This document shows, piece by piece, positions 792 to 45,610 of a DNA stretch of 64,000 nt. Under the pieces are notes generated by a model, which worked only from the letters and a program-made list of their open reading frames with translations, was not told where the DNA came from and made no database searches. Both the position numbers and the translations under genes were made by a program. Source of the stretch: a virus; the IMG/VR virus record IMGVR_UViG_3300028025_000091, positions 1-64,000 of that record; one strand, 5' to 3'. Position 1 is the stretch's first letter. Each line of letters starts with the position of its first letter.

Positions 792-812
792 TTTCGTATA
801 TTAAAGTATAAA
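792..812 (+). promoter_or_regulatory. Early promoter cassette, copy 1
   Basis: TTTCGTATATT followed by GTATAAA, ending 10 nt before the ATG at 823. It is a member of the recurrent cassette that precedes most early genes here. The promoter role is inferred from position and repetition. Confidence 0.7.
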
Positions 813-822
813 ATAAGAAAAT

Positions 823-1329
823 ATGTCAATAGTTCGTTTCATCGCAGATTTACATTTATCACATCAAAACATGGCTACTCGTCGTGGTTTCTCAACTATA
901 GAGGAACACGACGAGCACATTATTGCAAAATGGAATAGTGTGGTAAACAAACGAGACGTTACCTATATTTTAGGTGATGTGACGATGGAAAAATCATCAC
1001 CATACCCATTACTTGATCGTTTAAACGGTATCAAACACATCGTGTTAGGAAACCACGATCGCCGTCAAGATGTTAAAAAACTATTTGACTATGCTGAAAG
1101 TGTAGGTGGAATGATACAATACAAAGGTATATTTCTCACTCACTGCCCAATACACTCAGATGAACTTGAGTATGGAATCGTAAAAAATATTCACGGACAT
1201 ATTCATGATAAAGTTGTTATGAAGATGCTTGATGGATGGGAAGTACCAGATGAACGTTATTTCTGTGTTAGTTGTGAGCGAGTAGATTATATACCAAAAT
1301 CACTTAAGGACTTAGGTATTGAAAGATAA
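823..1329 (+). CDS. Metallophosphoesterase
   Basis: Calcineurin-like metallophosphoesterase of 168 aa, a normal length for the small single-domain phage members. The metal-binding blocks are all visible and in order: D9-x-H11 with H14 nearby, GDV at 51-53, GNHD at 76-79, THCP at 106-109 and GHIH at 125-128. The family hydrolyses phosphomono- or diesters with a two-metal centre; the substrate cannot be told from sequence. It has its own early promoter cassette, so it is probably expressed at once after infection. Possible roles are nucleotide or 2',3'-cyclic phosphate hydrolysis, or removal of a signalling nucleotide. Confidence 0.92.
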   Translation: MSIVRFIADLHLSHQNMATRRGFSTIEEHDEHIIAKWNSVVNKRDVTYILGDVTMEKSSPYPLLDRLNGIKHIVLGNHDRRQDVKKLFDYAESVGGMIQYKGIFLTHCPIHSDELEYGIVKNIHGHIHDKVVMKMLDGWEVPDERYFCVSCERVDYIPKSLKDLGIER

Positions 1330-1330
1330 A

Positions 1331-1351
1331 TTCGTATATTAAACGTATAAA
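1331..1351 (+). promoter_or_regulatory. Early promoter cassette, copy 2
   Basis: TTCGTATATT at 1331-1340 and GTATAAA at 1345-1351, followed by AGAGAAAGTTATGACA, the cassette's typical start-codon context. Confidence 0.7.
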
Positions 1352-1362
1352 AAGAGAAAGTT

Positions 1363-2094
1363 ATGACAGGAAAACAGTTAGATATGTTTGCAGGTGTGTT
1401 ATTAACAGCTGATCAACAAGAACAAGTAAATACCTATATTGAAAATTGCAAGAAAAGTTCAGAGTTTGCTCAAACAAAACACAACAATATTGTAGGGTTG
1501 TTACTTATGAATGGTTTTTGTAAGAATACTCATTTTGAAGAAAGTTGTAAAACAACTATTGAAACACGTACTGTAAAATTAGGTTATACCTATAATAACA
1601 CTGATTTTGAAACAGAAGTTACAGCTGAATATAGCCAATCAGAAATTTATCTATTAGGACAAAGTTTTGATTCATATAAAGGTAAAGTTAAACCAACCAA
1701 GTTCTACTTTGATGTTGAAAAAGATAAGATTCAATGTGGTTCAATCACAGAACAATATCGATATTACAAACCAAGAACATTACTTGAAAAACTTCAACGA
1801 CATAATGAAAATGCTATGTATCGTTTTGAGGAACATCAGAAGAAAACAAACCTAGAAAAAAACACAATTGAAAAATACACAAAACTATATCCAAACACTA
1901 CAATAGAAGCTAAAGATGGTTGGAGTAAATATGCTGGTTCATATCGATTAATTGAAGTTAAATTTGAATCAGGCAGTTATGTTCAGTTTAAGTTAGATAC
2001 TTACAACAACAAAGAATATATGTGTAATAAACATGATGCTTTAACTGATAAGCTTACAGCAGATGAATTGTTAGATAGATTCTCAAAACAGTAA
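1363..2094 (+). CDS. Hypothetical protein (243 aa)
   Basis: The longest protein of the first 9 kb after which the ORFs stay small. It begins MTGKQLDMFAG; the N-terminal third is helical and contains several Cys residues, and the rest is rich in Thr, Tyr and Lys and probably beta-containing. No family is recognised. It has its own promoter cassette and is followed directly by a terminator hairpin, so it is a monocistronic early unit. Confidence 0.85.
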   Translation: MTGKQLDMFAGVLLTADQQEQVNTYIENCKKSSEFAQTKHNNIVGLLLMNGFCKNTHFEESCKTTIETRTVKLGYTYNNTDFETEVTAEYSQSEIYLLGQSFDSYKGKVKPTKFYFDVEKDKIQCGSITEQYRYYKPRTLLEKLQRHNENAMYRFEEHQKKTNLEKNTIEKYTKLYPNTTIEAKDGWSKYAGSYRLIEVKFESGSYVQFKLDTYNNKEYMCNKHDALTDKLTADELLDRFSKQ

Positions 2095-2101
2095 AAAAAG
2101 G

Positions 2102-2124
2102 AAGCCCTCAATTAAGAGGGCTTT
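2102..2124 (+). terminator. Rho-independent terminator fused to next promoter
   Basis: Stem AAGCCCTC (2102-2109), loop AATTAA, stem GAGGGCTT (2116-2123). The trailing T residues are the first bases of the next TTTCGTATATT cassette, so terminator and promoter share bases. Confidence 0.8.
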
Positions 2125-2138
2125 CGTATATTTCAAGT
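2122..2138 (+). promoter_or_regulatory. Early promoter cassette, copy 3
   Basis: TTTCGTATATTTCAAGTAA overlapping the 3' end of the terminator; the downstream half is the less conserved CAAGTAA form. It leads into AAAGGTTATGACA at the 2157 start. Confidence 0.65.
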
Positions 2139-2156
2139 AAGAAAAAAATAAAGGTT

Positions 2157-2318
2157 ATGACAAAATTTGAATTTAATAATCCAACAAGATTAAAAGAATT
2201 TTTAAAGCAGTTAAATGAACTTGTAGATGAATTTCATCCAAACATATATTTGATGGATGATGTGTGTGAAGCACTAGAAAAAATTGATGAAGCAATTAAA
2301 AAAGAACTAAGCAAATGA
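2157..2318 (+). CDS. Hypothetical protein (53 aa)
   Basis: Short helical, acidic ORF beginning MTKFEFNNPTRLKEF. It is supported by the promoter cassette, the GGTTATGA start context and a 4-nt ATGA overlap with the next gene at 2315. Function unknown. Confidence 0.7.
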   Translation: MTKFEFNNPTRLKEFLKQLNELVDEFHPNIYLMDDVCEALEKIDEAIKKELSK

Positions 2319-2836
2319 AATTTAAAAAAGGAGACATATTAGAATTTAAAGGAGTACCAACATACGCTGCTAAAAAGGGAGCAAAAGCTATTTGTGTTAG
2401 TAATGGTGATTATGTCTATGTAGAATGGATTCGAAATGGAGATGACAATGATCAAGGCAACGGTGGTTATGAGGAATCATGGTTTACAAAAGTAGAGGAA
2501 GTTTATACACAAAAAGAAGATCGTATATTGGAAGAAAATAAGAAGGTTATGAAATTTGATTTAGAAAAAGGTAAACAAGGGTTAGTAGAGTATTTCGAAA
2601 CGGAATTTGAAAGAGCATCAATATATTCACTTGAGTATATTAAGAGTTGTGATGATATGGATTTGGTTGAAAGTGAAGCAAGATCGTTTCGTGCCTTTAA
2701 GGAAGAAAACAATAAAGTAATAGGTAAAATTGAACGCGCCTCATCATTATCATCAGTATTTGAAGCATTAGTAGATACTATTTTAGAGGATGACGATGAA
2801 ACTATTTTATCATTTTTTATTGAAGGGCTACAATGA
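2315..2836 (+). CDS. Hypothetical protein, possible fusion of two ORFs (173 aa)
   Basis: Residues 1-70 look like a small beta-barrel/SH3-like unit (MKFKKGDILEFKG...YVEWI). Residues 79-173 are a separate acidic helical unit. At the join (2520-2551) the DNA carries a copy of the promoter/leader cassette ending in AGAAGGTTATGAAA, with the ATG at 2549 in frame. The C-terminal half could therefore also be made alone as a 95-aa protein, or two genes became fused by loss of a stop. Neither half matches a family I can name. Confidence 0.75.
   Translation: MKFKKGDILEFKGVPTYAAKKGAKAICVSNGDYVYVEWIRNGDDNDQGNGGYEESWFTKVEEVYTQKEDRILEENKKVMKFDLEKGKQGLVEYFETEFERASIYSLEYIKSCDDMDLVESEARSFRAFKEENNKVIGKIERASSLSSVFEALVDTILEDDDETILSFFIEGLQ
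2520..2551 (+). promoter_or_regulatory. Internal promoter/leader cassette inside a reading frame
   Basis: ATCGTATATTGGAAG then an A-rich leader and GGTTATGA, lying in frame within the 2315 gene. Same spacing to ATG as in the genuine leaders; the GTATAAA half is not preserved. Confidence 0.45.
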
Positions 2837-2937
2837 GAAAGTCAGCAAAACAACAAGTAGAGGAAATAGAAATGGCACGATTCGAAATGTATATGGCCTT
2901 ATTCTTACTTGACTTAGGAATAGAATTATCAAAATAG
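2833..2937 (+). CDS. Hypothetical micropeptide (34 aa)
   Basis: ORF beginning MRKSAKQQVEEIEMARFEMY, coupled by ATGA overlap to the gene at 2315 and ending just before the next cassette. Amphipathic helix with a hydrophobic C-terminal third. Coding status rests on context only. Confidence 0.5.
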   Translation: MRKSAKQQVEEIEMARFEMYMALFLLDLGIELSK

Positions 2938-2938
2938 A

Positions 2939-2960
2939 TTTCGTATATTAATTGTATAAA
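2939..2960 (+). promoter_or_regulatory. Early promoter cassette, copy 4
   Basis: TTTCGTATATT (2939-2949), spacer AATT, GTATAAA (2954-2960); ATG follows at 2972. Confidence 0.7.
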
Positions 2961-2971
2961 AAAAGAAAAAT

Positions 2972-3349
2972 ATGTCAACAAGAAGTAGAATAGCAATAGA
3001 AAACCAAGACGGATCAGTAACATCAATTTATTGTCACTTTGATGGTTATACAGATGGAGTAGGAAAAAAGTTAGAAAAATGGTACACAACACAAGCCAAA
3101 GTAGAAGCATTGATTGAATTGGGAGACATTTCATCATTAGACATGACTCCAACATCTACAGTAGCGTATCATCGTGATCGAGATGAAGATTTTAACCAAA
3201 CAACATATGACAATGTTCCAACACTATTTGAATCAGGATTCAACATTGGAGTAGAATACATTTACTGCTACACCAAAAGTGGACAATGGTTAGTATCTGA
3301 TGATGGCCCAGTTATGGAATTGGAACGAGCAATCGAGGAGGGATTATAA
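2972..3349 (+). CDS. Conserved phage protein of unknown function (125 aa)
   Basis: Begins MSTRSRIAIENQDGSVTSIYC and continues HFDGYTDGVG. This opening, with a Cys-His/Trp-x-Gly motif, is typical of a family of unknown function that is widespread in phages and some bacteria. Length is normal for the family. It has its own promoter cassette and a 1-nt overlap (TAATG) with the following gene. No catalytic role is known to me. Confidence 0.8.
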   Translation: MSTRSRIAIENQDGSVTSIYCHFDGYTDGVGKKLEKWYTTQAKVEALIELGDISSLDMTPTSTVAYHRDRDEDFNQTTYDNVPTLFESGFNIGVEYIYCYTKSGQWLVSDDGPVMELERAIEEGL

Positions 3350-3564
3350 TGAAATTTGAAAACAAAGAACAAGTAGTAGATGCATTGGTAACGGAGTGGA
3401 ATCGTAAAAGAACAAGTTTTTACAACACTCCAACCAATCAAACCAATGAAGATTATTGGACGTTTAATCGCACATTGGCTTACTACAACAAATTGAAAAA
3501 AGAATATTTCATTACTTGTGTAGGGAATTTAGCTCACAACAGCTTAAAAGGAATATTGAGTTAA
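3349..3564 (+). CDS. Hypothetical protein (71 aa)
   Basis: Coupled to the upstream gene through a TAATG junction. Contains several Trp/Tyr residues in the middle. No recognised domain. It ends just before the next promoter cassette. Confidence 0.7.
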   Translation: MKFENKEQVVDALVTEWNRKRTSFYNTPTNQTNEDYWTFNRTLAYYNKLKKEYFITCVGNLAHNSLKGILS

Positions 3565-3571
3565 AAATATC

Positions 3572-3593
3572 TTTCGTATATTGACTGTATAAG
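3572..3593 (+). promoter_or_regulatory. Early promoter cassette, copy 5
   Basis: TTTCGTATATT, spacer GACT, GTATAAG. The leader to the ATG at 3632 is longer than usual and almost pure A-rich sequence, ending AAAGGTTATGAGC. Confidence 0.7.
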
Positions 3594-3631
3594 AAAAGAA
3601 AAACATTTAAAAAAACAAAAAAATAAAGGTT

Positions 3632-3850
3632 ATGAGCAAATTAAATCAATTTCAAAAAGGTACAATTAGAGAAGCATTAACAATGTATGGCAATGCTCTA
3701 AAACAAGAAATCGCTGATGCTGAAGCAGCAGGTAAACGACCATTCATGACACAAGGTTTTGTGGATATGCAAATCAATGAGTTACTAGACACATTAAAAG
3801 TTGTAAGCGAAACAAAAACAAAAACTCTAAACAGTGGATATGAGCGATGA
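3632..3850 (+). CDS. Hypothetical protein (72 aa)
   Basis: Small helical protein beginning MSKLNQFQKGTIREAL, preceded by an ideal GGTTATGA start context. It overlaps the following micropeptide by 11 nt in another frame. Function unknown. Confidence 0.75.
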   Translation: MSKLNQFQKGTIREALTMYGNALKQEIADAEAAGKRPFMTQGFVDMQINELLDTLKVVSETKTKTLNSGYER

Positions 3851-3917
3851 AGAAGCATTGCTCATACTTGAGCAAATGGAAGAACTAGATTTTGGAGCTA
3901 GGGACATAGGTTTTTAA
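3840..3917 (+). CDS. Hypothetical micropeptide (25 aa)
   Basis: Acidic ORF MSDEEALLILEQMEELDFGA plus six residues, overlapping the 3' end of the previous gene. It ends immediately before the next cassette. Supported only by position and composition. Confidence 0.4.
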   Translation: MSDEEALLILEQMEELDFGARDIGF

Positions 3918-3923
3918 GAGTAA

Positions 3924-3945
3924 TTTCGTATATTGATTGTATAAA
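3924..3945 (+). promoter_or_regulatory. Early promoter cassette, copy 6
   Basis: TTTCGTATATT, spacer GATT, GTATAAA, then AAGAAAGGTTATGAAA at the 3956 start. Confidence 0.7.
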
Positions 3946-3955
3946 AAGAAAGGTT

Positions 3956-4195
3956 ATGAAAAAGAAAGATATTATTGAATTACTCCAAAACAAAGAAGCA
4001 TTAGCTTATTTAGATCTACAACAATGTAACGACGTGTTTGGTACAGATCATCAATACACAAAACAAACAAGACGGACATGGGGTGTTTTAAATGAAATAT
4101 TGGATGAAATTAAAGTAAAACCAAATATGGAATTAGAAGCAGCTAAACAAGCTCAAAAAATGATTTTAAATAGATATAAAAAAGAATTTGCTTAG
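3956..4195 (+). CDS. Hypothetical protein (79 aa)
   Basis: Lys-rich helical protein beginning MKKKDIIELLQNKEAL. Start fixed by the cassette and GGTTATGA context. No domain recognised. Confidence 0.75.
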   Translation: MKKKDIIELLQNKEALAYLDLQQCNDVFGTDHQYTKQTRRTWGVLNEILDEIKVKPNMELEAAKQAQKMILNRYKKEFA

Positions 4196-4239
4196 CTTGC
4201 TTTACCCCACACCACAATACTCAAATACGTATATACAAA

Positions 4240-4410
4240 ATGAAATTAAAACAATGCGATAAAGTAACATGCATGACACACCCAGGTGTGTGGACGTTAG
4301 TGTGGTATAAAGAAGGAGACACAACGTGTGCAATACAAAACTACAAATATAGGTGTATTGTTAAAACAGCTACTTTAAAGAAAGTAGTTGAGGACAAAGA
4401 AAATAAATAG
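4240..4410 (+). CDS. Hypothetical protein (56 aa)
   Basis: ORF with four Cys residues and a compact beta-like pattern (MKLKQCDKVTCMTHPGVWTL). A degenerate TACGTATATAC lies directly upstream at about 4226-4236, much closer to the ATG than the usual cassette. Function unknown. Confidence 0.6.
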   Translation: MKLKQCDKVTCMTHPGVWTLVWYKEGDTTCAIQNYKYRCIVKTATLKKVVEDKENK

Positions 4411-4413
4411 AGA

Positions 4414-4434
4414 TTTCGTATATTTCAGTATAAA
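4414..4434 (+). promoter_or_regulatory. Early promoter cassette, copy 7
   Basis: TTTCGTATATT, spacer TCA, GTATAAA; an A-rich leader reaches the ATG at 4467. Confidence 0.7.
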
Positions 4435-4466
4435 TAAAGAAACATAAATTAAAAAAAGAAAAAGTT

Positions 4467-4655
4467 ATGATGTTATCAATCGCAATTATTTTAGGAGTAG
4501 CAATGGTATTAAATATTATTGATACAGAAGGGAATTACAATGTATTAATGGCCGCGGCGTTAGTTGTTTCATTGTTTGCTTTAAACATTGTTTTAGCAAT
4601 TGTTATTTTGAGTGTATTAGCACTATTGGGAATTGCAAAAGCACTTAGTAACTAA
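4467..4655 (+). CDS. Small membrane protein, two transmembrane segments (62 aa)
   Basis: Almost wholly hydrophobic. Two predicted membrane helices, roughly residues 3-18 and 26-58 (the second long enough for one or two spans), are separated by a short polar turn (DTEGNYN). It is expressed from its own early cassette and followed by a terminator. It could act on the host envelope early (superinfection exclusion, membrane remodelling) or be a holin-like peptide; nothing decides between these. Confidence 0.75.
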   Translation: MMLSIAIILGVAMVLNIIDTEGNYNVLMAAALVVSLFALNIVLAIVILSVLALLGIAKALSN

Positions 4656-4659
4656 AGCA

Positions 4660-4680
4660 AATAACCAATAGGTTATTTTT
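4660..4680 (+). terminator. Rho-independent terminator
   Basis: AATAACC (4660-4666), loop AATA, GGTTATT (4671-4677) running into T residues, just after the stop of the membrane protein. Confidence 0.65.
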
Positions 4681-4705
4681 AAGGAATAAAAGATATAAAG
4701 GTAAG

Positions 4706-4725
4706 TTCGTATATTTCAGTATAAA
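4706..4725 (+). promoter_or_regulatory. Early promoter cassette, copy 8
   Basis: TTCGTATATT, spacer TCA, GTATAAA; 21 nt later the ATG at 4747 in an ACAGTTATGACA context. Confidence 0.7.
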
Positions 4726-4746
4726 TAAGAAAATAAAAAGACAGTT

Positions 4747-5172
4747 ATGACAAAAGAAACATTAGTAAACCAATTAGAAGCAGCAAAAGCATTATCATCA
4801 CAAGTTGATATTGATAAAGTAATTGAATTGATCAAACAGATCGAAACACCAACAAAAATTACACAGGAATTAGTAGATGATATGTGTAGTAAAATTGAGC
4901 GTTGTTTAGATAACAATGCCGATGATTTAGTTGATAAGGACAACGTTTCATTTAGCATTGGTTATGGAAATGTAATTGAAATAGATGATGCGCAAATTGA
5001 TACTTATGAAGTAATGAAACATATCTCAGATATATTAGATGAGTTTGTAAATGATGAAGATGATGAAGAAGGAATGGAAGAAATTATTCAAGATGAAGAT
5101 GTTGAAGAAATTCCTAATGAGTCGGGACTAGTTCAATCCGCAATGCGAGAATATAGTAATTTAGGTAATTAA
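4747..5172 (+). CDS. Hypothetical acidic protein (141 aa)
   Basis: Helical N-terminus followed by a very acidic C-terminal third with runs of Asp/Glu (residues about 99-125). Strongly acidic small early phage proteins are sometimes DNA mimics, but no such family is recognised. Monocistronic: promoter cassette upstream, terminator hairpin downstream. Confidence 0.8.
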   Translation: MTKETLVNQLEAAKALSSQVDIDKVIELIKQIETPTKITQELVDDMCSKIERCLDNNADDLVDKDNVSFSIGYGNVIEIDDAQIDTYEVMKHISDILDEFVNDEDDEEGMEEIIQDEDVEEIPNESGLVQSAMREYSNLGN

Positions 5173-5184
5173 GTAAAATAAAGG

Positions 5185-5207
5185 AAGCCCTCAATCAAGA
5201 GGGCTTT
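5185..5207 (+). terminator. Rho-independent terminator fused to next promoter
   Basis: AAGCCCTC (5185-5192), loop AATCAA, GAGGGCTT (5199-5206), with the T tract doubling as the start of TTTCGTATATT. It is nearly identical to the hairpin at 2102-2124. Confidence 0.8.
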
Positions 5208-5221
5208 CGTATATTTCATCA
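5205..5221 (+). promoter_or_regulatory. Early promoter cassette, copy 9
   Basis: TTTCGTATATTTCATCAAATA, the variant lacking a clear GTATAAA, overlapping the terminator; ATG at 5239. Confidence 0.65.
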
Positions 5222-5238
5222 AATAAAAAGAAAAACAT

Positions 5239-5640
5239 ATGAATTTACAAAATTTAGATAGAAACGAATTACTAGCATTACAACAGCTAATCAATAAAGC
5301 ACTTGATCAACCAAAAGAAAAGGATGTTGATGATATGATTAAAGAAATCATAGATAATTTTAATTTTGCTAAAGTGGAAACTGTTATGGATGCTTTAGAT
5401 TGGCAGTGGAGAGGAGAAACACCAACAATTGATGATTTATATGAAGAAGCAAAACGTTTACTACGAGGTGCAGCGGAAAGTAGATTAGGTGCTTTTAAAA
5501 ATGAACATCATGGTGTAGCAATCATAAATGCTTGTGGTGGATTTGAAGCTAAGGCATTTTGTAATGAAGATAAAACTAAAATTACAGGACTAGACCTTGC
5601 ATTTGTAGTTGCAAGTTGGGATTCAAGTATAGAGGAATAA
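5239..5640 (+). CDS. Hypothetical protein (133 aa)
   Basis: Helical N-terminus (MNLQNLDRNELLALQQL) followed by a mixed domain around residues 45-133 with the pattern DWQWRGETPTIDDLYEEAKR. A motif of that shape recurs in small uncharacterised phage proteins. It is a single-gene unit with its own cassette. Function unknown. Confidence 0.8.
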   Translation: MNLQNLDRNELLALQQLINKALDQPKEKDVDDMIKEIIDNFNFAKVETVMDALDWQWRGETPTIDDLYEEAKRLLRGAAESRLGAFKNEHHGVAIINACGGFEAKAFCNEDKTKITGLDLAFVVASWDSSIEE

Positions 5641-5655
5641 GCTTATTAAAATTGT

Positions 5656-5677
5656 TTTCGTATATTGATTGTATAAA
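5656..5677 (+). promoter_or_regulatory. Early promoter cassette, copy 10
   Basis: TTTCGTATATT, spacer GATT, GTATAAA, leader ending GAAAGTTATGAGT at 5698. Confidence 0.7.
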
Positions 5678-5697
5678 AAGAGATAAAAAAGAAAGTT

Positions 5698-6009
5698 ATG
5701 AGTAAATACAGAGAATTAAGAATAAACCAACCAAAACTAACCATCAAAGAAGGGGCACGTGAAGTGATTTTCAAACTAGTATCGTGCATGTGTGATAATG
5801 TTAGTTATATTAAATTTTATCAAAATGATAAAGAGTATTTTCGAATGCAATCAACTACAAGTCATGGAATGGGAAATGCATTATCTAATTATCAAATGAA
5901 ACACACTAAAGAAGAAATTGAGTGGGAAGCAGATGAAAATATGTGGGGTGGAGTTATAGCAATGGTTAATTCAGGTACATCAGTTATTGAATCAGTAAAA
6001 AGTAGATAA
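5698..6009 (+). CDS. Hypothetical protein (103 aa)
   Basis: Soluble protein beginning MSKYRELRINQPKL with no recognised domain. The start is fixed by the cassette. A second short gene follows one base after its stop. Confidence 0.75.
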   Translation: MSKYRELRINQPKLTIKEGAREVIFKLVSCMCDNVSYIKFYQNDKEYFRMQSTTSHGMGNALSNYQMKHTKEEIEWEADENMWGGVIAMVNSGTSVIESVKSR

Positions 6010-6010
6010 T

Positions 6011-6157
6011 ATGAATAGAGATATAAATTTTACAGATGAGTTTGGTAATGAATTCTTTGTTAAAGTAAGAGAAGATAAAGTAAAAGTATTTAAGAATAAA
6101 ATCGAAATAACAGATGTAAGATTTTATGTAGATGAATTAGGGGAAGAAGATTATTAA
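6011..6157 (+). CDS. Hypothetical protein (48 aa)
   Basis: Starts one base after the previous stop (TAATATG) and ends just before the next cassette. Short beta-strand pattern (FFVKVREDKVKVFKNKIEI). Function unknown. Confidence 0.6.
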   Translation: MNRDINFTDEFGNEFFVKVREDKVKVFKNKIEITDVRFYVDELGEEDY

Positions 6158-6163
6158 AGTAGA

Positions 6164-6184
6164 TTTCGTATATTTCATCAAATA
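6164..6184 (+). promoter_or_regulatory. Early promoter cassette, copy 11
   Basis: TTTCGTATATTTCATCAAATA variant, as at 5205, leading to the ATG at 6198. Confidence 0.65.
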
Positions 6185-6197
6185 AAAAGGATAAGAT

Positions 6198-6413
6198 ATG
6201 TTAAAAGAAGCAATTGAATTATTAAGTAAATTTGGATTAGTAGATGGCAATTCATTACCAGACTCAACACCAGGTCATATGTACCAATTCCGATCAAGTT
6301 CACCTAACTTAATTGTACCTGCTCCGGGGATGAAAACAACTATATCAGGGTTTTTAAAGGATAATGGTTTCACAGTTAAACCAATGGGTACAATGTTAAA
6401 AATTAGTAAATAA
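6198..6413 (+). CDS. Hypothetical protein (71 aa)
   Basis: Small protein beginning MLKEAIELLSKFGLVDGNSL with a central Ser/Pro-rich stretch. The next ATG lies 8 nt downstream, so the two genes are probably co-transcribed. Not assigned. Confidence 0.7.
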   Translation: MLKEAIELLSKFGLVDGNSLPDSTPGHMYQFRSSSPNLIVPAPGMKTTISGFLKDNGFTVKPMGTMLKISK

Positions 6414-6421
6414 AAAGTACA

Positions 6422-6649
6422 ATGACAAACTCAATAGTAAACGGAAACATATATGACATTGGTCAAACAGTAAACGGAGTATCAAAGTTTCTATGGTTTA
6501 ATGGGAAATGGTATTATTGTAATGAGGAAAGATTTTCATACTTAGATGAATATGAATATGACCAAGATGATTTAACAAAACTTGTTAATGATAACGACTT
6601 TAATGAAGTAACATTAGTAGGAAATATTTTAGAACCCTCTAGACAATAA
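6422..6649 (+). CDS. Hypothetical protein (75 aa)
   Basis: Second gene of the 6164 unit. Aromatic-rich (Trp/Tyr/Phe), acidic. No recognised domain. Confidence 0.7.
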   Translation: MTNSIVNGNIYDIGQTVNGVSKFLWFNGKWYYCNEERFSYLDEYEYDQDDLTKLVNDNDFNEVTLVGNILEPSRQ

Positions 6650-6676
6650 ATTAAGGACAAAAGTTATCAAATAAAC

Positions 6677-6698
6677 TTTCGTATATTTCGGGTATAAA
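6677..6698 (+). promoter_or_regulatory. Early promoter cassette, copy 12
   Basis: TTTCGTATATT, spacer TCGG, GTATAAA; ATG at 6710. Confidence 0.7.
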
Positions 6699-6709
6699 AA
6701 GAGATAAAT

Positions 6710-6898
6710 ATGGTACAATTTAGGTTTGAAACAGAAGTAGAAACAACAGTAGTAGTAGAGTATTTCATTGATGCTGAAACGTTAGAGGAAGCACTTGAAC
6801 AATTAAAAAGTGGAGAACATAGAGATGAAGGGATTATATTGAGAGAGAACTTTAATTGGGAAACAGAAGTAATTACTGTAGAAGAGGAACTAAATTAG
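6710..6898 (+). CDS. Hypothetical protein (62 aa)
   Basis: Beta-strand then helix pattern (FETEVETTVVVEYFIDAETL, then EEALEQLK), like many small phage proteins of one alpha/beta unit. Monocistronic with its own cassette. Function unknown. Confidence 0.75.
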   Translation: MVQFRFETEVETTVVVEYFIDAETLEEALEQLKSGEHRDEGIILRENFNWETEVITVEEELN

Positions 6899-6908
6899 TG
6901 AGATAGAG

Positions 6909-6928
6909 ATCGTATATTCCAGTATAAA
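6909..6928 (+). promoter_or_regulatory. Early promoter cassette, copy 13
   Basis: ATCGTATATT, spacer CCA, GTATAAA; ATG at 6944. Confidence 0.65.
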
Positions 6929-6943
6929 TAAAGAAAGAAAATT

Positions 6944-7099
6944 ATGTATAGTTTAAAATGTGATTATTATAAAAAGGAATTCAATCATTTACATGAATTA
7001 ATTGATGATGTATTGATGAGTGGAATGGACCCAAATTATGAAATAACTAAGAATGGGAAACAAATGGGTGAATATTTAAACGAATTAATAGGATTCTGA
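6944..7099 (+). CDS. Hypothetical protein (51 aa)
   Basis: Short ORF beginning MYSLKCDYYKKEFNHLHELI, with promoter cassette and AAAATTATG start context. A micropeptide ORF begins one base after the stop. No assignment. Confidence 0.6.
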   Translation: MYSLKCDYYKKEFNHLHELIDDVLMSGMDPNYEITKNGKQMGEYLNELIGF

Positions 7100-7100
7100 T

Positions 7101-7166
7101 ATGACTACATTTATAGTAATACTGGTAATAGCAATGTTAATCGTCAATGGGATAGATGAAAAATGA
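7101..7166 (+). CDS. Possible membrane micropeptide (21 aa)
   Basis: MTTFIVILVIAMLIVNGIDE plus one residue: a single hydrophobic helix with a charged tail, starting one base after the previous stop. Very short, so coding status is uncertain, although single-span peptides recur here (8630, 8743, 10702, 11273). Confidence 0.4.
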   Translation: MTTFIVILVIAMLIVNGIDEK

Positions 7167-7356
7167 TCATCAACAAATGGAAATTAACAATGAAAATCAA
7201 CGAGGATTAACGTGTATAAAACGAGAAAGATCATCATCAATGACGATCATCAACAAAACGGAAATTGTCGAAGATCATCACCAAGGAAATCGTCAATGTG
7301 TGGAATGAACATCAACATGGGGAACGTCAATCATCAACAATGATCATCAACAAATG
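7165..7356 (+). repeat. Degenerate GATCATCA repeats, gene-free
   Basis: Five copies of GATCATCA (about 7165, 7228, 7246, 7272, 7341) plus an AATCATCA variant near 7329, most followed by ACAA and an A-rich tail. They are interspersed with GGAAAT/CGTCAA words. No reading frame stays open. The TGATCA core is a palindrome, so the unit could bind a dimeric protein. Possible iteron-type element or decayed repeat; the role is unknown. Confidence 0.55.
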
Positions 7357-7383
7357 AAAATCGTCGGAACGTAGGTGGAATGT

Positions 7384-7451
7384 TGGTTGTCCACGAAGGG
7401 TATGTAAAAGTGGTGTGTCTAACCCTTCCATGACGCAACCACGTCCTTTTT
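7384..7451 (+). ncRNA. Structured RNA with nested stems and T tract
   Basis: Outer stem TGGTTG (7384-7389) with CAACCA (7436-7441) encloses inner stem GAAGGGT (7395-7401) with ACCCTTC (7422-7428). A T-run follows at about 7445-7450. This could be the 3' end of a small RNA or a terminator for the unit started at 6909. No protein reading frame crosses it convincingly. Confidence 0.5.
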
Positions 7452-7744
7452 AATACTTTTCCAAAAATATATACAAAACTTGTGAACAACCATATGTTCC
7501 CCACGGGAAAACGCGGGGAAAGGGGGATAAAATTATTTGGATACCTGGGTTATCTTTCGTATACTCCACATATGTATAACGGAACAAGCGGGACACGGTT
7601 TAAAGAATAGCAACAGCGTATAGGGCACAAAAGTATTCCCAGGTAATCACAAGCAATGTTCACACATATTCACAAATAAAACAAAAGCATGCCATAAACG
7701 GTATGCTACAATACTGCTTAGATGATAAAACAACAGTTTTACTT
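7452..7744. other. Gene-free stretch with several hairpins
   Basis: Holds a 9-bp hairpin with one mismatch (TTCCCCACG at 7497-7505 with CGCGGGGAA at 7512-7520). It also holds a long-range pair TACCTGGG (7542-7549) with CCCAGGTA (7638-7645), and a hairpin AGCATGCC (7686-7693) with GGTATGCT (7700-7707). A degenerate cassette TTTCGTATACT sits at 7555-7565. No convincing ORF or tRNA is seen. GC is higher than in the neighbouring genes. Confidence 0.5.
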
Positions 7745-7867
7745 ATGAAAACAATTGAAGTGACTATACAAGAAATTCAAGCCGCGACACGGCCAAACGT
7801 GTACCGGAATAGAAAGAAGTATACACGTAAAGACAAGCACCGAGGGAATAAGGGGTGTGATGATTGA
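7745..7867 (+). CDS. Hypothetical basic micropeptide (40 aa)
   Basis: MKTIEVTIQEIQAATRPNVY followed by an Arg/Lys-rich tail (NRKKYTRKDKHRGNK). The first half is a beta/helix pattern and the second is strongly basic, suggesting nucleic-acid or ribosome contact. It ends one base before the next cassette. GC content is higher than nearby genes. Function unknown. Confidence 0.6.
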   Translation: MKTIEVTIQEIQAATRPNVYRNRKKYTRKDKHRGNKGCDD

Positions 7868-7887
7868 TTCGTATATTGGGGTATAAA
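7868..7887 (+). promoter_or_regulatory. Early promoter cassette, copy 14
   Basis: TTCGTATATT, spacer GGG, GTATAAA, directly after the stop of the upstream micropeptide; ATG at 7899. Confidence 0.7.
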
Positions 7888-7898
7888 TAAGATAAGAC

Positions 7899-8144
7899 AT
7901 GAAAAAGTTAATAATGATTTTAGGAGTAATGGTGGTAGCAATGAGTTCATGTACTGAGAATGCTCGAGCGAGACATTTTGGTGGTACTGAGACATTAGCC
8001 CTAAAGCCAAATGAGGTGGTATTAAATGTGACCTGGAAAGATAGTCAAATGTGGATCTGTACTCAAGACACAGTCACACGTGTGGTTTATTTTCGCGAGA
8101 AATCAAGTTGGGGCGTTATGGAGGGTACAGTAATAATTAAATAA
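7899..8144 (+). CDS. Small conserved phage lipoprotein (81 aa)
   Basis: Signal peptide MKKLIMILGVMVVAMSSC with a lipobox-type Cys at residue 18, so probably a lipid-anchored envelope protein. The mature part has a pattern (GGT-x-T, then NVTWKDSQMWICTQ) seen in a family of short phage lipoproteins of unknown role. The early promoter suggests action before lysis. Superinfection exclusion is one possibility, by analogy with other early phage lipoproteins; this is inference. Confidence 0.8.
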   Translation: MKKLIMILGVMVVAMSSCTENARARHFGGTETLALKPNEVVLNVTWKDSQMWICTQDTVTRVVYFREKSSWGVMEGTVIIK

Positions 8145-8170
8145 CCAGGACACCCAGACACTAAATTAAA

Positions 8171-8190
8171 TTCGTATATTTCAGTATAAT
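8171..8190 (+). promoter_or_regulatory. Early promoter cassette, copy 15
   Basis: TTCGTATATT, spacer TCA, GTATAAT; long A-rich leader to AAAAGTTATGACA at 8230. Confidence 0.7.
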
Positions 8191-8229
8191 TAAGATAAGA
8201 CAAAAAATTAAAATTTAAAAAGAAAAGTT

Positions 8230-8565
8230 ATGACAAAAGTAAATGAAGTAAAAGGAATTAAAACAGGTCGTCCAGTTAATCCAAATTCAGCAAGACAAAT
8301 CCGTTTAGCAGAGTTAGAAGCAAAGCGTTCCAATGGTGAGTTAAAACGAGGCCGTCCAGTGGATACAACTTCAGCTAGACAATTTAGATTACAAATTCAA
8401 GCAATCAATAAGCAATTAGGTATAGGTCAAGGCAGACCTGTTAATCCAAATAGTGCTAGACAAATCCGTTTAAATGAATTAGCTGCTAAAGCTGAAATGA
8501 ATGGAGGAGTAGTTAAGCGAGGACGCCCTGCTAAAGTAGTAGTAACAGATGAGGTGGCTGCATAA
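8230..8565 (+). CDS. AT-hook-like repeat protein (111 aa)
   Basis: Three near-identical units built on GRPVNPNSARQIRL or variants, starting at residues 13, 41 and 68, plus a fourth GRP at 98-100. GRP cores preceded by basic residues (KRGRP at 39-43 and 97-100) are the hallmark of AT-hooks, which bind the minor groove of AT-rich DNA. Between units are charged helical spacers of about 14 residues. In an AT-rich phage this could coat phage or host DNA, or act as a transcription factor. Expressed from its own early cassette. No enzymatic motif. Confidence 0.75.
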   Translation: MTKVNEVKGIKTGRPVNPNSARQIRLAELEAKRSNGELKRGRPVDTTSARQFRLQIQAINKQLGIGQGRPVNPNSARQIRLNELAAKAEMNGGVVKRGRPAKVVVTDEVAA

Positions 8566-8596
8566 GCCACTTTGGACCAAGGGGTGTGAGGTCAAA

Positions 8597-8616
8597 TTCG
8601 TATATTGAGGTATAAA
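8597..8616 (+). promoter_or_regulatory. Early promoter cassette, copy 16
   Basis: TTCGTATATT, spacer GAG, GTATAAA; ATG at 8630. Confidence 0.7.
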
Positions 8617-8629
8617 AGAGATAAGACAT

Positions 8630-8737
8630 ATGATAGCAATTGAATTAGTAAAAGTAGTATTAGCAGTTGGAGCACCTGCAATCATGATTATAGCAGCAGG
8701 GTTAGTATGTGAGGGTATTGATAAATTTTCAAAATAA
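8630..8737 (+). CDS. Single-span membrane micropeptide (35 aa)
   Basis: MIAIELVKVVLAVGAPAIMI continues hydrophobic and then ends in a polar tail (CEGIDKFSK). One transmembrane helix, early promoter. Function unknown. Confidence 0.6.
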   Translation: MIAIELVKVVLAVGAPAIMIIAAGLVCEGIDKFSK

Positions 8738-8742
8738 AAGTT

Positions 8743-8820
8743 ATGGAGGTATTAGTAGTATTAGGTTTAACAAGTGTAGTAGTTATGATTAAGTTTTTAG
8801 TAATGGAGATATTATTATGA
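8743..8820 (+). CDS. Single-span membrane micropeptide (25 aa)
   Basis: Starts 5 nt after the previous stop in an AAAAGTTATGGAG context. MEVLVVLGLTSVVVMIKFLV plus five residues is nearly all hydrophobic. Coupled to the next ORF by ATGA. Confidence 0.5.
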   Translation: MEVLVVLGLTSVVVMIKFLVMEILL

Positions 8821-8915
8821 AGAAAAATAAAGTAATACAATTAATCAATCCAGTGGAGCTATTAATGCTGCCCCATGTGTTAAGATTTGAAGACGCAATC
8901 ATACATTTAAATTAG
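8817..8915 (+). CDS. Hypothetical micropeptide (32 aa)
   Basis: ATGA-coupled to the upstream membrane peptide. Begins MKKNKVIQLINPVELLMLPH. Ends shortly before a hairpin. Function unknown. Confidence 0.5.
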   Translation: MKKNKVIQLINPVELLMLPHVLRFEDAIIHLN

Positions 8916-8928
8916 TATAGTACACCTG

Positions 8929-8950
8929 AGCCAACACATGTTGGCTTTCG
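8929..8950 (+). terminator. Hairpin, possible terminator
   Basis: Stem AGCCAAC (8929-8935) with GTTGGCT (8940-8946) around a short ACAT loop, followed by a weak TTCGG rather than a T-run. It sits at the end of the 8597 unit. Confidence 0.5.
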
Positions 8951-8956
8951 GTGGCT

Positions 8957-9124
8957 ATGAGCACGACACAATTTATCCAAGACAATAAGACACGCATTCA
9001 AAATATTGACGGCAATTTAGACCAAGCCGCAATCACAATTATGGCTGAGGGTGGGCGCCTCGAATTTTATTATTTTGAAAATGGGTGTCTGGTGAGTTCG
9101 AGGTCTCGGATTCATAAGTGGTAG
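8957..9124 (+). CDS. Hypothetical protein (55 aa), GC-rich
   Basis: ORF beginning MSTTQFIQDNKTRIQNIDGN. Base composition is much richer in GC than its neighbours, particularly in the 3' half, and it lacks the cassette and the A-rich start context. The protein has a plausible mixed composition but no recognisable family. It may be a recent acquisition or a chance ORF. Confidence 0.4.
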   Translation: MSTTQFIQDNKTRIQNIDGNLDQAAITIMAEGGRLEFYYFENGCLVSSRSRIHKW

Positions 9125-9452
9125 GGGGGTCTGGGGTGTGTACGCCGGCGGTATATATATGTGCGTAATATAGTAGTATGGCCCCACGCGCGCCGGGGTC
9201 AATATATGGCGGGTTGGCGAGGGACATTACTTAGAGTAAAGGGCAGCCACTCCCTTACAAATCCCATCATGATAATATATCCTTATATATTTAACCTGTT
9301 GATTAAATAGCTTGTATATCCCCCACAATCAACCCCTAATTTCCAAAACGGCCAAAGGGGATAAAACCCACGAAAAACTAATCTCCTCTCTTTACAAAAG
9401 TACTTGGCATCGATATAGGATATACGTATATTTAAAACATAATAAATAGGTT
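9125..9452. other. Intergenic region, GC-rich then AT-rich, with hairpins
   Basis: No gene can be supported. It contains GC-rich blocks (CCGGCGG near 9145; CCCC...GGGG at about 9182-9198). A hairpin GTAAAGGG...CCCTTAC lies at about 9235-9258. A CCCCT...AGGGG pair sits near 9335-9360, before an AT-rich leader for the gene at 9453. Confidence 0.5.
9423..9440 (+). promoter_or_regulatory. Weak early-type promoter
   Basis: TACGTATATTTAAAACATAATAA resembles the cassette with a divergent first half. The leader ends in ATAGGTTATGGAA at 9453, which matches the usual start context. Confidence 0.5.
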
Positions 9453-9713
9453 ATGGAATTAGAAAAATTTGAACAAGCAAAAAAAGTAAAAGAAGATCTT
9501 GATAGATTGGAAAGACAAAAACGTAAATTGGAATCCGCCCTTAAATCTTGTGGTTTGGAAGTAAAGATTAAATTTACTCACCCAGGACCATTTTCAAGAA
9601 AAGATGAGGTTAGTTTTTTTAACAGAGAGATTATTAAAGAAATGATTTCTAAAGAACTTGAGAGAGTAACAGAAGAAATAGAATTAGTTAATGAAGAATT
9701 TGAGAACCTATGA
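9453..9713 (+). CDS. Hypothetical coiled-coil protein (86 aa)
   Basis: Helical heptad pattern over residues 1-35 and 62-86, separated by a short loop with a PGPF turn. No known family. Overlaps the next ORF by 4 nt (ATGA), so the two are translationally coupled. Confidence 0.75.
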   Translation: MELEKFEQAKKVKEDLDRLERQKRKLESALKSCGLEVKIKFTHPGPFSRKDEVSFFNREIIKEMISKELERVTEEIELVNEEFENL

Positions 9714-12017: not shown

Positions 12018-12041
12018 AAATCCTTGGAAGGGTGATTTCAT

Positions 12042-12063
12042 TTCCGTATATTAACCGTATAAA
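12042..12063 (+). promoter_or_regulatory. Early promoter cassette, copy 17
   Basis: TTCCGTATATT, spacer AACC, GTATAAA, leader AAAGGTTATGAAA at 12078. Probably drives the operon through the sigma factor gene. Confidence 0.7.
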
Positions 12064-12077
12064 TAAAAATAAAGGTT

Positions 12078-12395
12078 ATGAAAAATGTATTTGAAAATAT
12101 CGAAGAAATTCAAACAAAAGAGCAAGCCGAAGCTCGTATCAAAGAAGTTAAAAGTCAAATCCGTAAACTAGAAATTGCAGTTATTGCAATCGGTTTGATT
12201 GGCTTATCTTTAATTACCCTCCTATTTTTCGGAATCATCCCATTTAATGTATTGTCTGTTTTAGGCATTATTGGAAGTATTATCTTGATTATAAAAGCAT
12301 TTAAGGATGGAGAACCTCTTGAAGCAGAGAAGTTTTTCCTCCTAATTATTTTTTCAAACAATAAAAAAGAAGAAGATGGAGAACCAAGAATTTAA
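12078..12395 (+). CDS. Membrane protein, two transmembrane segments (105 aa)
   Basis: Residues 1-33 form a charged helix, about 34-53 and 58-74 are membrane spans, and an acidic/basic tail follows. Overlaps the next gene by 20 nt. No known family. Confidence 0.7.
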   Translation: MKNVFENIEEIQTKEQAEARIKEVKSQIRKLEIAVIAIGLIGLSLITLLFFGIIPFNVLSVLGIIGSIILIIKAFKDGEPLEAEKFFLLIIFSNNKKEEDGEPRI

Positions 12396-13103: not shown

Positions 13104-13541
13104 ATGGCACTAGATAATATATTTTCTTTATTTGGATTTCCTGACAAAGATGATGAGGAAAGAAAGAAATTAGAGGCCGAGTTAGATGTCTTTAAAGAAA
13201 CTCCTCATTTCAAATTAGGAATGTTCCATAAGTTAATAATGAACGGAAGTTTATTTTCAAAACAGGTTGTAAAGTTTTTTGCTAAATCTGATCCTGGGTT
13301 GGATGTAAAAGGAATTGATCAAGCAGGTGAGTACATGATGTATACTCGGGCATGGTATTGGATTGAGCAAGTTAAACTTAGAAAGAAGGAATGGAAAGAA
13401 GCCCTAAAACAATATGCCAGTGAGGAATTTATTGTATCGATAAAGCTGTCTATTAATTACTTTGAAAGTACAGAAGAATATGAAAAGTGTGCTCATTTGA
13501 AGAAAATACAGGACTTTGTTGAGAAATCCTTGGAGAAGTAA
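13104..13541 (+). CDS. Hypothetical helical protein (145 aa)
   Basis: Predicted all-helical. The C-terminal stretch (YFESTEEYEKCAHLKKIQ, about residues 113-131) resembles a UVR-type helical hairpin, as in UvrB/UvrC and Clp proteins. That suggests a protein-interaction role and is a weak match. It lies upstream of the HD-domain gene in a probable operon. Confidence 0.65.
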   Translation: MALDNIFSLFGFPDKDDEERKKLEAELDVFKETPHFKLGMFHKLIMNGSLFSKQVVKFFAKSDPGLDVKGIDQAGEYMMYTRAWYWIEQVKLRKKEWKEALKQYASEEFIVSIKLSINYFESTEEYEKCAHLKKIQDFVEKSLEK

Positions 13542-14609: not shown

Positions 14610-14893
14610 TAGTAACAATAACAATTAGCGCATTAGCGATATTAGTAGTGATCCTAGGGTTCACGACTTATAATCTTCTTAAGAAAAATGAAAAACAAGA
14701 AGATATTGTAGCCGGTTATTTAACCTATTTAGACAATTTATCTCGCACAATTGAAATTTCGGACAAGAAATTAAAAGAATTAGATCGTGGAGGTGTATTT
14801 GAAAAAGATGACGAAGTTGGGGTTATATTTCAATCAATTTTAAAAATTCAAGAAATCCTAAATGACTTCAATCTTAGAAAATTCAACAATTAA
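14606..14893 (+). CDS. Membrane-anchored coiled-coil protein (95 aa)
   Basis: N-terminal transmembrane helix (about residues 3-23) followed by a charged helical segment. ATGA-coupled to the HD gene. Small proteins of this form recur next to the late sigma gene in related phages as far as I recall; the role is unknown. Confidence 0.7.
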   Translation: MIVTITISALAILVVILGFTTYNLLKKNEKQEDIVAGYLTYLDNLSRTIEISDKKLKELDRGGVFEKDDEVGVIFQSILKIQEILNDFNLRKFNN

Positions 14894-14894
14894 A

Positions 14895-15599
14895 ATGCCT
14901 AAAAAGAAAGTTAGCAAAAATTATTTTACTCAAGAAACTGAGGATGCTATCGTTCTGTACAATAATACTCCAGACCCAGAGTTAAGAAGTAAAATATATG
15001 AAGAAAAGATTCACTATGCTTTCTTCAAATTAACCCAGAATATAATTCATACATTTAAGTTTTATCATACTGAGGTGAGTGATTTAGAGCATTTACAACA
15101 TGAAATTATAGTATTTTTATTATCTAAAATACATTTATTCGATCCTAGCAAAGGTGCCAAAGCATATTCTTACTTTGGTACCATTGTTAAACGTTGGTGT
15201 ATATTATATAATGATAAAAACTATAAAAGTAAAATTAGTAAAGTATCAACTGATGAATTATTAAAAGATGATACACATTCATATACTATAGAACCATCAA
15301 ATTCAGACGATCGATTGTCTAATTTCATGGATGAGTACGTAGAATTTGTTAGTGTTAACATATATAAATTATTCCCTAAAGAATATGACGCTAAGATTGC
15401 AGATGCTATTTTAGAGTTGTTTCGCAAACGAGAATCAATCGACGTATTTAATAAAAAAGCTTTATACATCTATATCCACGAGATGATTCCAGATGCTAAA
15501 ACTCCAAAAATTACAAAAATAGCAGGCGTTTTATATAGTGTATTTAAGAAAAATTATTTATTCTATTTAGAACAGGGATATACGAGTTTTCAACTCTAG
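14895..15599 (+). CDS. 55: Late-transcription sigma factor, T4 gp55-like
   Basis: About 234 aa from the ATG at 14895, which follows the upstream stop by one base. An in-frame ATG at 14862 overlapping the upstream gene would add 11 residues. The key block IIHTFKFYHTEVSDLEHLQH, followed by FDPSKGAKAYSYFGTIVKRW, is the gp55/sigma-70 region 2 core seen in phage late sigma factors. It contains the helix for core polymerase binding and -10 recognition. In T4, gp55 with the gp45 clamp and gp33 directs host polymerase to TATAAATA late promoters. The ATATTTATAATAAA motifs before virion genes here fit that role. It sits in an early-cassette operon, as needed for an activator made before late genes. Confidence 0.85.
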   Translation: MPKKKVSKNYFTQETEDAIVLYNNTPDPELRSKIYEEKIHYAFFKLTQNIIHTFKFYHTEVSDLEHLQHEIIVFLLSKIHLFDPSKGAKAYSYFGTIVKRWCILYNDKNYKSKISKVSTDELLKDDTHSYTIEPSNSDDRLSNFMDEYVEFVSVNIYKLFPKEYDAKIADAILELFRKRESIDVFNKKALYIYIHEMIPDAKTPKITKIAGVLYSVFKKNYLFYLEQGYTSFQL

Positions 15600-15607
15600 T
15601 AATTTTC

Positions 15608-15617
15608 TATATTTATA
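15608..15617 (+). promoter_or_regulatory. Late promoter motif
   Basis: TATATTTATA, ahead of the baseplate block; the first ATG is at 15633. Confidence 0.55.
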
Positions 15618-15632
15618 CCCAAAAGTACTTAT

Positions 15633-15971
15633 ATGAGTAATTTAGAATCAAACGTTTGGGGTAAGAAGAAATTTTCTGACATCCTCAAAGAAATTTACGA
15701 TAACCAAAAGAAAAAAGAAGCCCAAATATCTGCTTTGATAGGTGAATTAAAACCACTTATTAACGATATTGGTGATGCTACATTGATAGTTCCACTTATT
15801 AAAGAATATATGGAATTAGGTATTAAAAATGATGAGCAATTAGTTAAAATGGCTACCATCATTCAACGTGCTGTTGCATCCAATAAATCAGAAGATGAAT
15901 CATTCGGAATGACCGAAGATGAAAAAGCTCAATTGTTATCTGAAGTTAAGAAATTTAACCCACAAGGATAA
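15633..15971 (+). CDS. Hypothetical late protein (112 aa)
   Basis: Helical protein starting MSNLESNVWGKKKFSDILKE. It sits at the head of the baseplate operon and overlaps the spike gene by 1 nt (TAATG). T4 hub genes occupy this general setting, but no sequence match can be made by eye. Confidence 0.7.
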   Translation: MSNLESNVWGKKKFSDILKEIYDNQKKKEAQISALIGELKPLINDIGDATLIVPLIKEYMELGIKNDEQLVKMATIIQRAVASNKSEDESFGMTEDEKAQLLSEVKKFNPQG

Positions 15972-19192: not shown

Positions 19193-19207
19193 TATATTTA
19201 TAATCAT
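19193..19207 (+). promoter_or_regulatory. Late promoter motif abutting a start codon
   Basis: TATATTTATAATCAT followed at once by ATG 19208; transcription from such a site would give a leaderless mRNA. Confidence 0.6.
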
Positions 19208-45561: not shown

Positions 45562-45588
45562 GTGGCCTCCTTTGGGAGGCCACTTTTT
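45562..45588 (+). terminator. Strong Rho-independent terminator
   Basis: GTGGCCTCC (45562-45570), loop TTTG, GGAGGCCAC (45575-45583), then TTTTT. An early cassette starts 2 nt after it. Confidence 0.9.
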
Positions 45589-45589
45589 A

Positions 45590-45610
45590 TTTCGTATATT
45601 TAAACATAAA
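45590..45610 (+). promoter_or_regulatory. Early promoter cassette, copy 18, isolated in the late region
   Basis: TTTCGTATATT (45590-45600) with AAACATAAAA downstream; ATG at 45618. The only clear copy after 12 kb. Confidence 0.65.

Follow-up and report, generated by a model that had tools for sequence, protein, structure and literature searches.

A conserved class of putative GGA-box promoters upstream of predicted early genes in a T4-like virus and its uncultured relatives

This work concerns a cassette repeated upstream of small, predicted early genes in a T4-like virus represented by IMG/VR record IMGVR_UViG_3300028025_000091 (173,789 bp; G000 below), whose bases 1-64,000 form the window. 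The cassettes fall into two promoter classes that share a TATATT core, one with a GGA box and the other with a TTG box, each at its own exact spacing. The GGA class was found in dozens of related uncultured viruses and not, as a promoter, in the bacterial genomes checked, a pattern that suggests a hidden viral route for redirecting host RNA polymerase. Among the genes of the record are those for a portal, major capsid protein and terminase of the T4 type. Judged by the portal, the nearest isolate is Flavobacterium phage immuto (59.6% identity across 100%), and Bacteroidota are probably the host group of the virus.

Two classes of putative promoter

All 19 positions listed in the initial annotation for an early promoter/leader cassette carried it, with a deviation of at most 1 base, on a single strand and upstream of small genes. 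The exact TTCGTATATT element was present in the window in 16 forward copies and 1 reverse copy, whereas 60 first-order Markov shuffles averaged 0.13 copies and never exceeded 1, and the combination TTCGTATATT-N3/4-GTATA was found 12 times in forward orientation, never in reverse and never across the 60 shuffles. Since the TTCGTATATT counts were far above those of the shuffles, a chance origin of the cassette was ruled out. Record-wide there were 26 forward copies and 1 reverse copy of TTCGTATATT; the ten forward copies outside the window were all located at 151-172 kb, so that the array seems to continue across the end of the record.

A feature overlooked earlier is a GGA box at a fixed distance upstream of the core. 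It begins exactly 25 nt 5' of the C in 17 of the 22 forward CGTATATT sites of the window, and in none of these sites did GGA appear at any of ten other tested offsets (-30 to -20). The 16 array copies all have the box, in the variants GGAATA, GGAAGN, GGACNN and GGAACT, within the architecture AGGAATA-N17-TTCGTATATT-N3/4-GTATA. The 17th GGA copy, site 2520 (cassette at 2496-2539, + strand), lies within open reading frame (ORF) 2315-2836 and looks like a real nested cassette, because GGA is at -25 and an in-frame AAGGTTATG follows, with its ATG at 2549; the stretch 2496-2549 is probably an internal promoter yielding a shorter protein. Over the whole record, GGAA-N21-CGTA gave 18 forward matches, 16 of them cassettes, and 1 reverse match, while the reversed-pattern control gave 1 and 3.

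The second class is defined by TTG exactly 21 nt 5' of the C, found in four of the 22 forward sites: 9423, 12042, 45590 and the intragenic site 45081. The sites inside genes were 2520, 45081 and 51525 on the + strand and 31236 on the - strand. When the cores preceding ORFs of at least 40 amino acids were considered (n=30 in the record), 20 had the GGA box, 8 had TTG and 2 had neither. None of the 17 GGA copies of the window had TTG at -21, which upholds the earlier view that this is not the T4 early promoter and agrees, for the array, with the reported lack of a TTG element at the right distance; that lack does not extend to 9423, 12042 and 45590, in which a TTG is present 21 nt 5' of the C and the promoter looks like that of host sigma-A.

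The logo of the GGA class, built from 624 unique sequences, reads tttAataaAGGAATAa..taatTAAAAta.atTTCGTATATT.AAgTAtAAAtAAAA. Selection on AGGA and TA..TT near an ORF start alone placed 624 sequences at the right offset and 12-15 at each of six others. The commonest box hexamers, as raw counts, were GGAATA (411 of 891), GGACTA (69) and GGAAGC (57). With the T of TATATT set at -12, following the numbering used for Flavobacterium johnsoniae in PMC6847099, the GGA box would extend from about -40 to -34, with the centre of AGGAATA at about -37, the TAAAA tract from about -26 to -22 and GTATAA from about -3 to +4. The A at -24, ten bases 5' of the C, was conserved in 92% of the GGA class vs 63% of the TTG class in the same phages, and the C and G of the -10 region in 87% and 96% of the GGA class and in 66% and 60% of the TTG class. 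A G at -5 was rare throughout: 2% of the GGA-class sequences had it, as did 5% and 2% of those in two sets of the TTG class. The proposal that GTATAAA belongs to a transcribed 5' leader could be retained in part, given that GTATAA would straddle the predicted start site. The leaders are A-rich and have no Shine-Dalgarno sequence, which is likewise described for Flavobacterium leaders (PMC6847099).

Distribution in viruses and bacterial genomes

AGGAATA-N17-TTCGTATATT was present in at least 118 stretches in IMG/VR, which as contigs do not amount to independent samples, and an off-spacing control one base longer (N18) was present in 6, none of them cassette-like. Among the matches listed for these 118 stretches, GGA was at -25 in 700 of 851 cores, the largest count at any other offset being 21, and TTG was at -21 in 86. 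With the exact-pattern copies removed, GGA at -25 still appeared in 460 of 611 cores. The two boxes were nearly exclusive: among 1008 cores, 536 had GGAA, 99 had TTG and 13 had both, and overlapping hybrids of the form GGAATTG also exist (18 unique).

Individual relatives were dominated by one class or the other, according to counts covering the examined parts of G001, G002, G003, G005, G007 and immuto. GGA at -25 was found in 22/28 cores of G001, 19/21 of G002 and 3/4 of G005, and in none of those of immuto (0/14), G003 (0/7) and G007 (0/2); the corresponding figures for TTG at -21 were 1/28, 0/21, 1/4, 9/14, 6/7 and 2/2. Eleven of the 48 records scanned carry the array and are 100 kb or longer; the T4 capsid family PF07068 was identified in 9 of them. 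Searches with two array proteins for a cultured array-bearing phage gave no match, and the matches listed for two further proteins came from immuto and from phages of other kinds. No description of this promoter was found in the open-licence papers searched.

The exact 17-base pattern was rare in bacteria, with 35 hits, one per stretch, in 84,980 species genomes; scored on the rest of the logo, all of them were negative (-4.9 to -49.7), against an in-sample viral median of +18.1. Across 119 genomes from the order that contains a Kordia genome (G031), which may not include the phage's own host, AGGAATA-N21-TAnnTTTG was as frequent as its reversed control (38 vs 39), and ATTTGG-N19-TAnnTTTG was found 256 times vs 125 for its control. 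For this reason TTG, and not GGA, appears to be the host form, as far as such patterns tell, and use of the GGA box by host promoters was rejected, given the chance-like character of the 35 hits and the lack of enrichment in the 119 genomes, although a host sigma tolerant of other -10 sequences might still use it. The sequences themselves show that there are two classes, that each keeps an exact spacing, that the two nearly exclude each other and that, in the genomes searched, the GGA class has a phage-only distribution.

How the GGA class may be recognized

We propose an early-gene promoter in two parts. In its downstream half, the host RNA polymerase holoenzyme would recognize TTCGTATATT as an extended -10/-7 element, with GTATAA as the start-site region ahead of the leader, and AGGAATA (minimally GGA) together with the TAAAA tract would substitute for the -33 TTG of host sigma-A, on the F. 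johnsoniae numbering. The phage would supply or recruit a factor, either injected or produced early on from the small number of TTG-class promoters, that contacts the GGA box and directs host polymerase to the array. We assign a probability of about 0.45 to this reading, which resembles T4 sigma appropriation; start site, polymerase, factor and timing are what we infer from the sequence. The idea that a phage factor works on host polymerase fits the data because the -10 element is shared, the upstream box is replaced at a fixed spacing, the distribution is phage-only and the spacer tract is class-specific. The earlier suggestion of a host sigma factor with phage help thereby becomes the leading interpretation, now with a concrete box, although the factor search found none.

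Somewhat more tentatively, we consider that this phage-only class may be widespread in uncultured T4-like viruses of Bacteroidota, with a GGA-reading phage specificity factor taking over the contact of sigma region 4, as a second invention of sigma appropriation, and that the classes may swap between orthologous genes, perhaps via GGAATTG hybrids.

Among the closest parallels are the T4 middle promoters, in which, as described in PMC2988021, a phage-specific box (the MotA box, with AsiA/MotA) substitutes for the host -35 and a host-type -10 is retained. Both systems have a phage box in place of the host -35 at a fixed spacing, and in the GGA class TA..TT is retained and common to the TTG class, but without G at -5. 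The MotA box is centred at -30, AGGAATA at about -37, and the GGA class differs in driving arrays of small early genes alongside a TTG class. Comparison with the Bacteroidota sigma-A promoter (TTG ... TAnnTTTG) shows TTG 23 nt before TATATT in the TTG-class copies of this phage, G003 and immuto, whereas the GGA class has no TTG and both classes mostly lack G at -5.

Several observations weigh against the proposed factor. Neither box was found in 81 of the 851 cores among the matches listed. Recognition by host sigma-A is itself presumed, because the -7 element is without the host G at -5 (2% G). When 68 of 112 ORFs in and next to the early region were searched with Pfam and PHROGs, no credible transcription-activator domain emerged, and neither of two folded candidate families (1363 and 13104; AlphaFold models) matched a PDB entry at E<=0.001. 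No candidate family cleanly tracked the GGA class in a tblastn survey of 180 own ORFs and a census in 80 contigs. DUF932 orthologues, moreover, are split between TTG (12) and GGA (13; n=25), a division hard to reconcile with the two classes being strictly separate in time.

Relatives of MotA and AsiA were not detected by Pfam or PHROGs in the 68 of 112 ORFs and ten single proteins scanned, which came from the parts of the record on either side of 64-140 kb. Two factor candidates were rejected for not tracking the class cleanly: the product of ORF 8230, present in 14 of 23 records, among them the TTG-class G003 with a weak match, and that of ORF 13104 (16 of 23, G003 again among them).

The split of DUF932 orthologues, which indicates that the classes are interchangeable, would also agree with a reading of the GGA class by host RNA polymerase alone, in which additional contacts through sigma region 4, the alpha C-terminal domain, the TAAAA spacer and the extended -10 produce a very strong promoter. 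T4 early promoters are highly conserved and repeated upstream of many small early genes, an arrangement shared by the array, whose genes are of the first-expressed kind. They have extra conserved positions (PMC2988021) and are listed as independent of a viral factor (PMC6024815). According to PMC2988021 they retain the host -35, however, which the array does not: its box replaces TTG and begins 4 bp farther upstream instead of being added to it, and hosts do not use it, as seen in the genome counts above. We therefore regard recognition by host polymerase alone as unlikely, if still worth considering.

The letters of the two boxes could also be read as the target of a specialized alternative sigma factor that recognizes both GGAATA and CGTATATT and is either encoded by the phage or a host sigma of the extracytoplasmic function (ECF) type. 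ECF promoters have a GGAA-type -35 and a CGT-type -10, and the stronger conservation of the -10 C and G in the GGA class than in the TTG class goes in the same direction. The ECF spacer is about 16-17 nt, and that of the GGA class is an invariant 19 nt, GGAATA-N19-CGTA being about 3 bp longer than usual. A CGT box does occur in the -10 region of an ECF-type motif of F. psychrophilum (PMC9723704), but TATATT is common to the TTG class and the single Sigma70_r2 match in the record is the gp55-like ORF described below, so an alternative sigma seems improbable to us.

A third possibility arises from the spacers. A strong hairpin ending at a T-run before CG was predicted in 124 of 788 GGA-class spacers and in 5 of 788 shuffled ones (for the TTG class of immuto and G003, 10 of 52 spacers, 2 when shuffled). 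A transcript from the upstream gene would stop where the next promoter starts. In 198 of 661 cases the box itself lies 0-4 nt 3' of the upstream stop codon. The GGA box might then serve the upstream gene, as a signal in its RNA or at its end (3' processing, stop context or terminator), and not be a promoter element. This we judge very improbable: the distance to the stop varies by tens of bases, that to the -10 is constant to the base, and 664 of the 788 spacers have no strong hairpin.

For phage proteins that take over the -35 contact, the textbook case is T4 sigma appropriation. If the two-part promoter with a phage factor is correct, a second, separately built case in Bacteroidota, with their unusual sigma factor and promoters, would show which features are general. 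The logo, sharp owing to hundreds of copies with invariant spacing, can be used for early-gene prediction in uncultured viruses, for reporters in Flavobacterium johnsoniae and in the search for the factor, and the GGA/TTG pairs at orthologous genes are natural promoter-swap experiments.

Genes downstream of the cassettes

All cassettes of the window described here are on the + strand. Those with GGAATA are at 769-812 (5' of ORF 823-1329, a calcineurin-like phosphoesterase), 2916-2959 (ORF 2972-3349), 3549-3592 (ORF 3632-3850), 4682-4725 (ORF 4747-5172), 5633-5676 (ORF 5698-6009) and 7844-7887 (ORF 7899-8144). GGAAGC is found at 2099-2142 (ORF 2157-2318) and 5182-5225 (ORF 5239-5640), both with a terminator-like hairpin in the spacer (at ~2102-2124, of 8 bp, and at ~5185-5207), and GGAAGA at 6141-6184 (ORF 6198-6413). 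The remaining boxes are GGACTT at 1307-1350 (ORF 1363-2094), GGACAT at 3901-3944 (ORF 3956-4195), GGACAA at 4391-4434 (ORF 4467-4655) and 6654-6697 (ORF 6710-6898), GGAACT at 6885-6928 (ORF 6944-7099), GGACAC at 8147-8190 (ORF 8230-8565) and GGACCA at 8573-8616, upstream of a short ORF starting at 8630. TTG-class promoters are located at 9404-9442 (ORF 9453-9713), at 12024-12062 (ORF 12078-12395, then further genes in the direction of the gp55-like ORF) and, directly 3' of a terminator-like hairpin, at 45572-45610 (ORF 45618-46931).

In the whole set, 873 downstream genes (790 GGA, 83 TTG) were grouped in 307 families. ORF 8230-8565 encodes a 111-amino-acid early protein with three GRPVNxxSARQxRL-like repeats, whose GRP cores are AT-hook-like; its family was present in 38 of 80 array contigs and had the GGA class in 41 of 42 cases, and no match to it was obtained among 50,697 phage records.

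Late motif and further observations

A different element, ATATTTAT, precedes the late genes. It is present in the window in 19 forward and 5 reverse copies, spanning 11360-63221, with none of the 19 within 1-9.4 kb and 15 of the 19 located within 12-60 nt 5' of an ORF, at 12-46 nt from its start codon. An example is at 15609-15616 (+), upstream of ORF 15633-15971, and further sites are at 19194, 21805, 31661, 39606, 52616, 60049 and 63221; the late genes of immuto are preceded by similar TATATTTAT sites. The structural half holds 45590 alone of the cassettes listed earlier, so that the cassette is not equally common at late genes, and its position, strand, associated gene type and conservation in related phages support its designation as a putative early promoter/leader. 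The T4 late motif is TATAAATA, which ATATTTAT does not resemble. The possibility that GTATAAA is an overlapping T4-type late promoter was ruled out because the late genes of the window, which the array does not precede, carry ATATTTAT instead, and forward TATAAATA outside the cassettes amounted to only 2 of 7.

The gp55-like late sigma candidate at 14862-15599 (+) was identified by a weak match to Sigma70 region 2, the sole such match in the record. Near it, ORF 13104-13541 encodes a 145-amino-acid all-helical protein, present in 16 of 23 records, whose product is a possible late co-activator candidate.

The 7-deazaguanine genes of immuto had no match within the 98 kb of G000 examined. One DksA-like member was detected among the 68 scanned ORFs, the scan not naming the ORF; judging from its sequence, this DksA-like zinc-finger protein is probably encoded at 2804-3118 of contig piece L040 (160804-161121 of the record). 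At the end of the record, 172656-173098 and 173307-173749 (also in L040) form a tandem repeat of two genes (80 and 67 amino acids) whose printed residues are identical between copies, either a duplication or an assembly artefact. Finally, the portal of PP395634.1 ('Microcystis phage' Mel-JY01) showed 52% identity over 89% to that of this Flavobacterium-type phage, and the stated host of Mel-JY01 may be worth rechecking.

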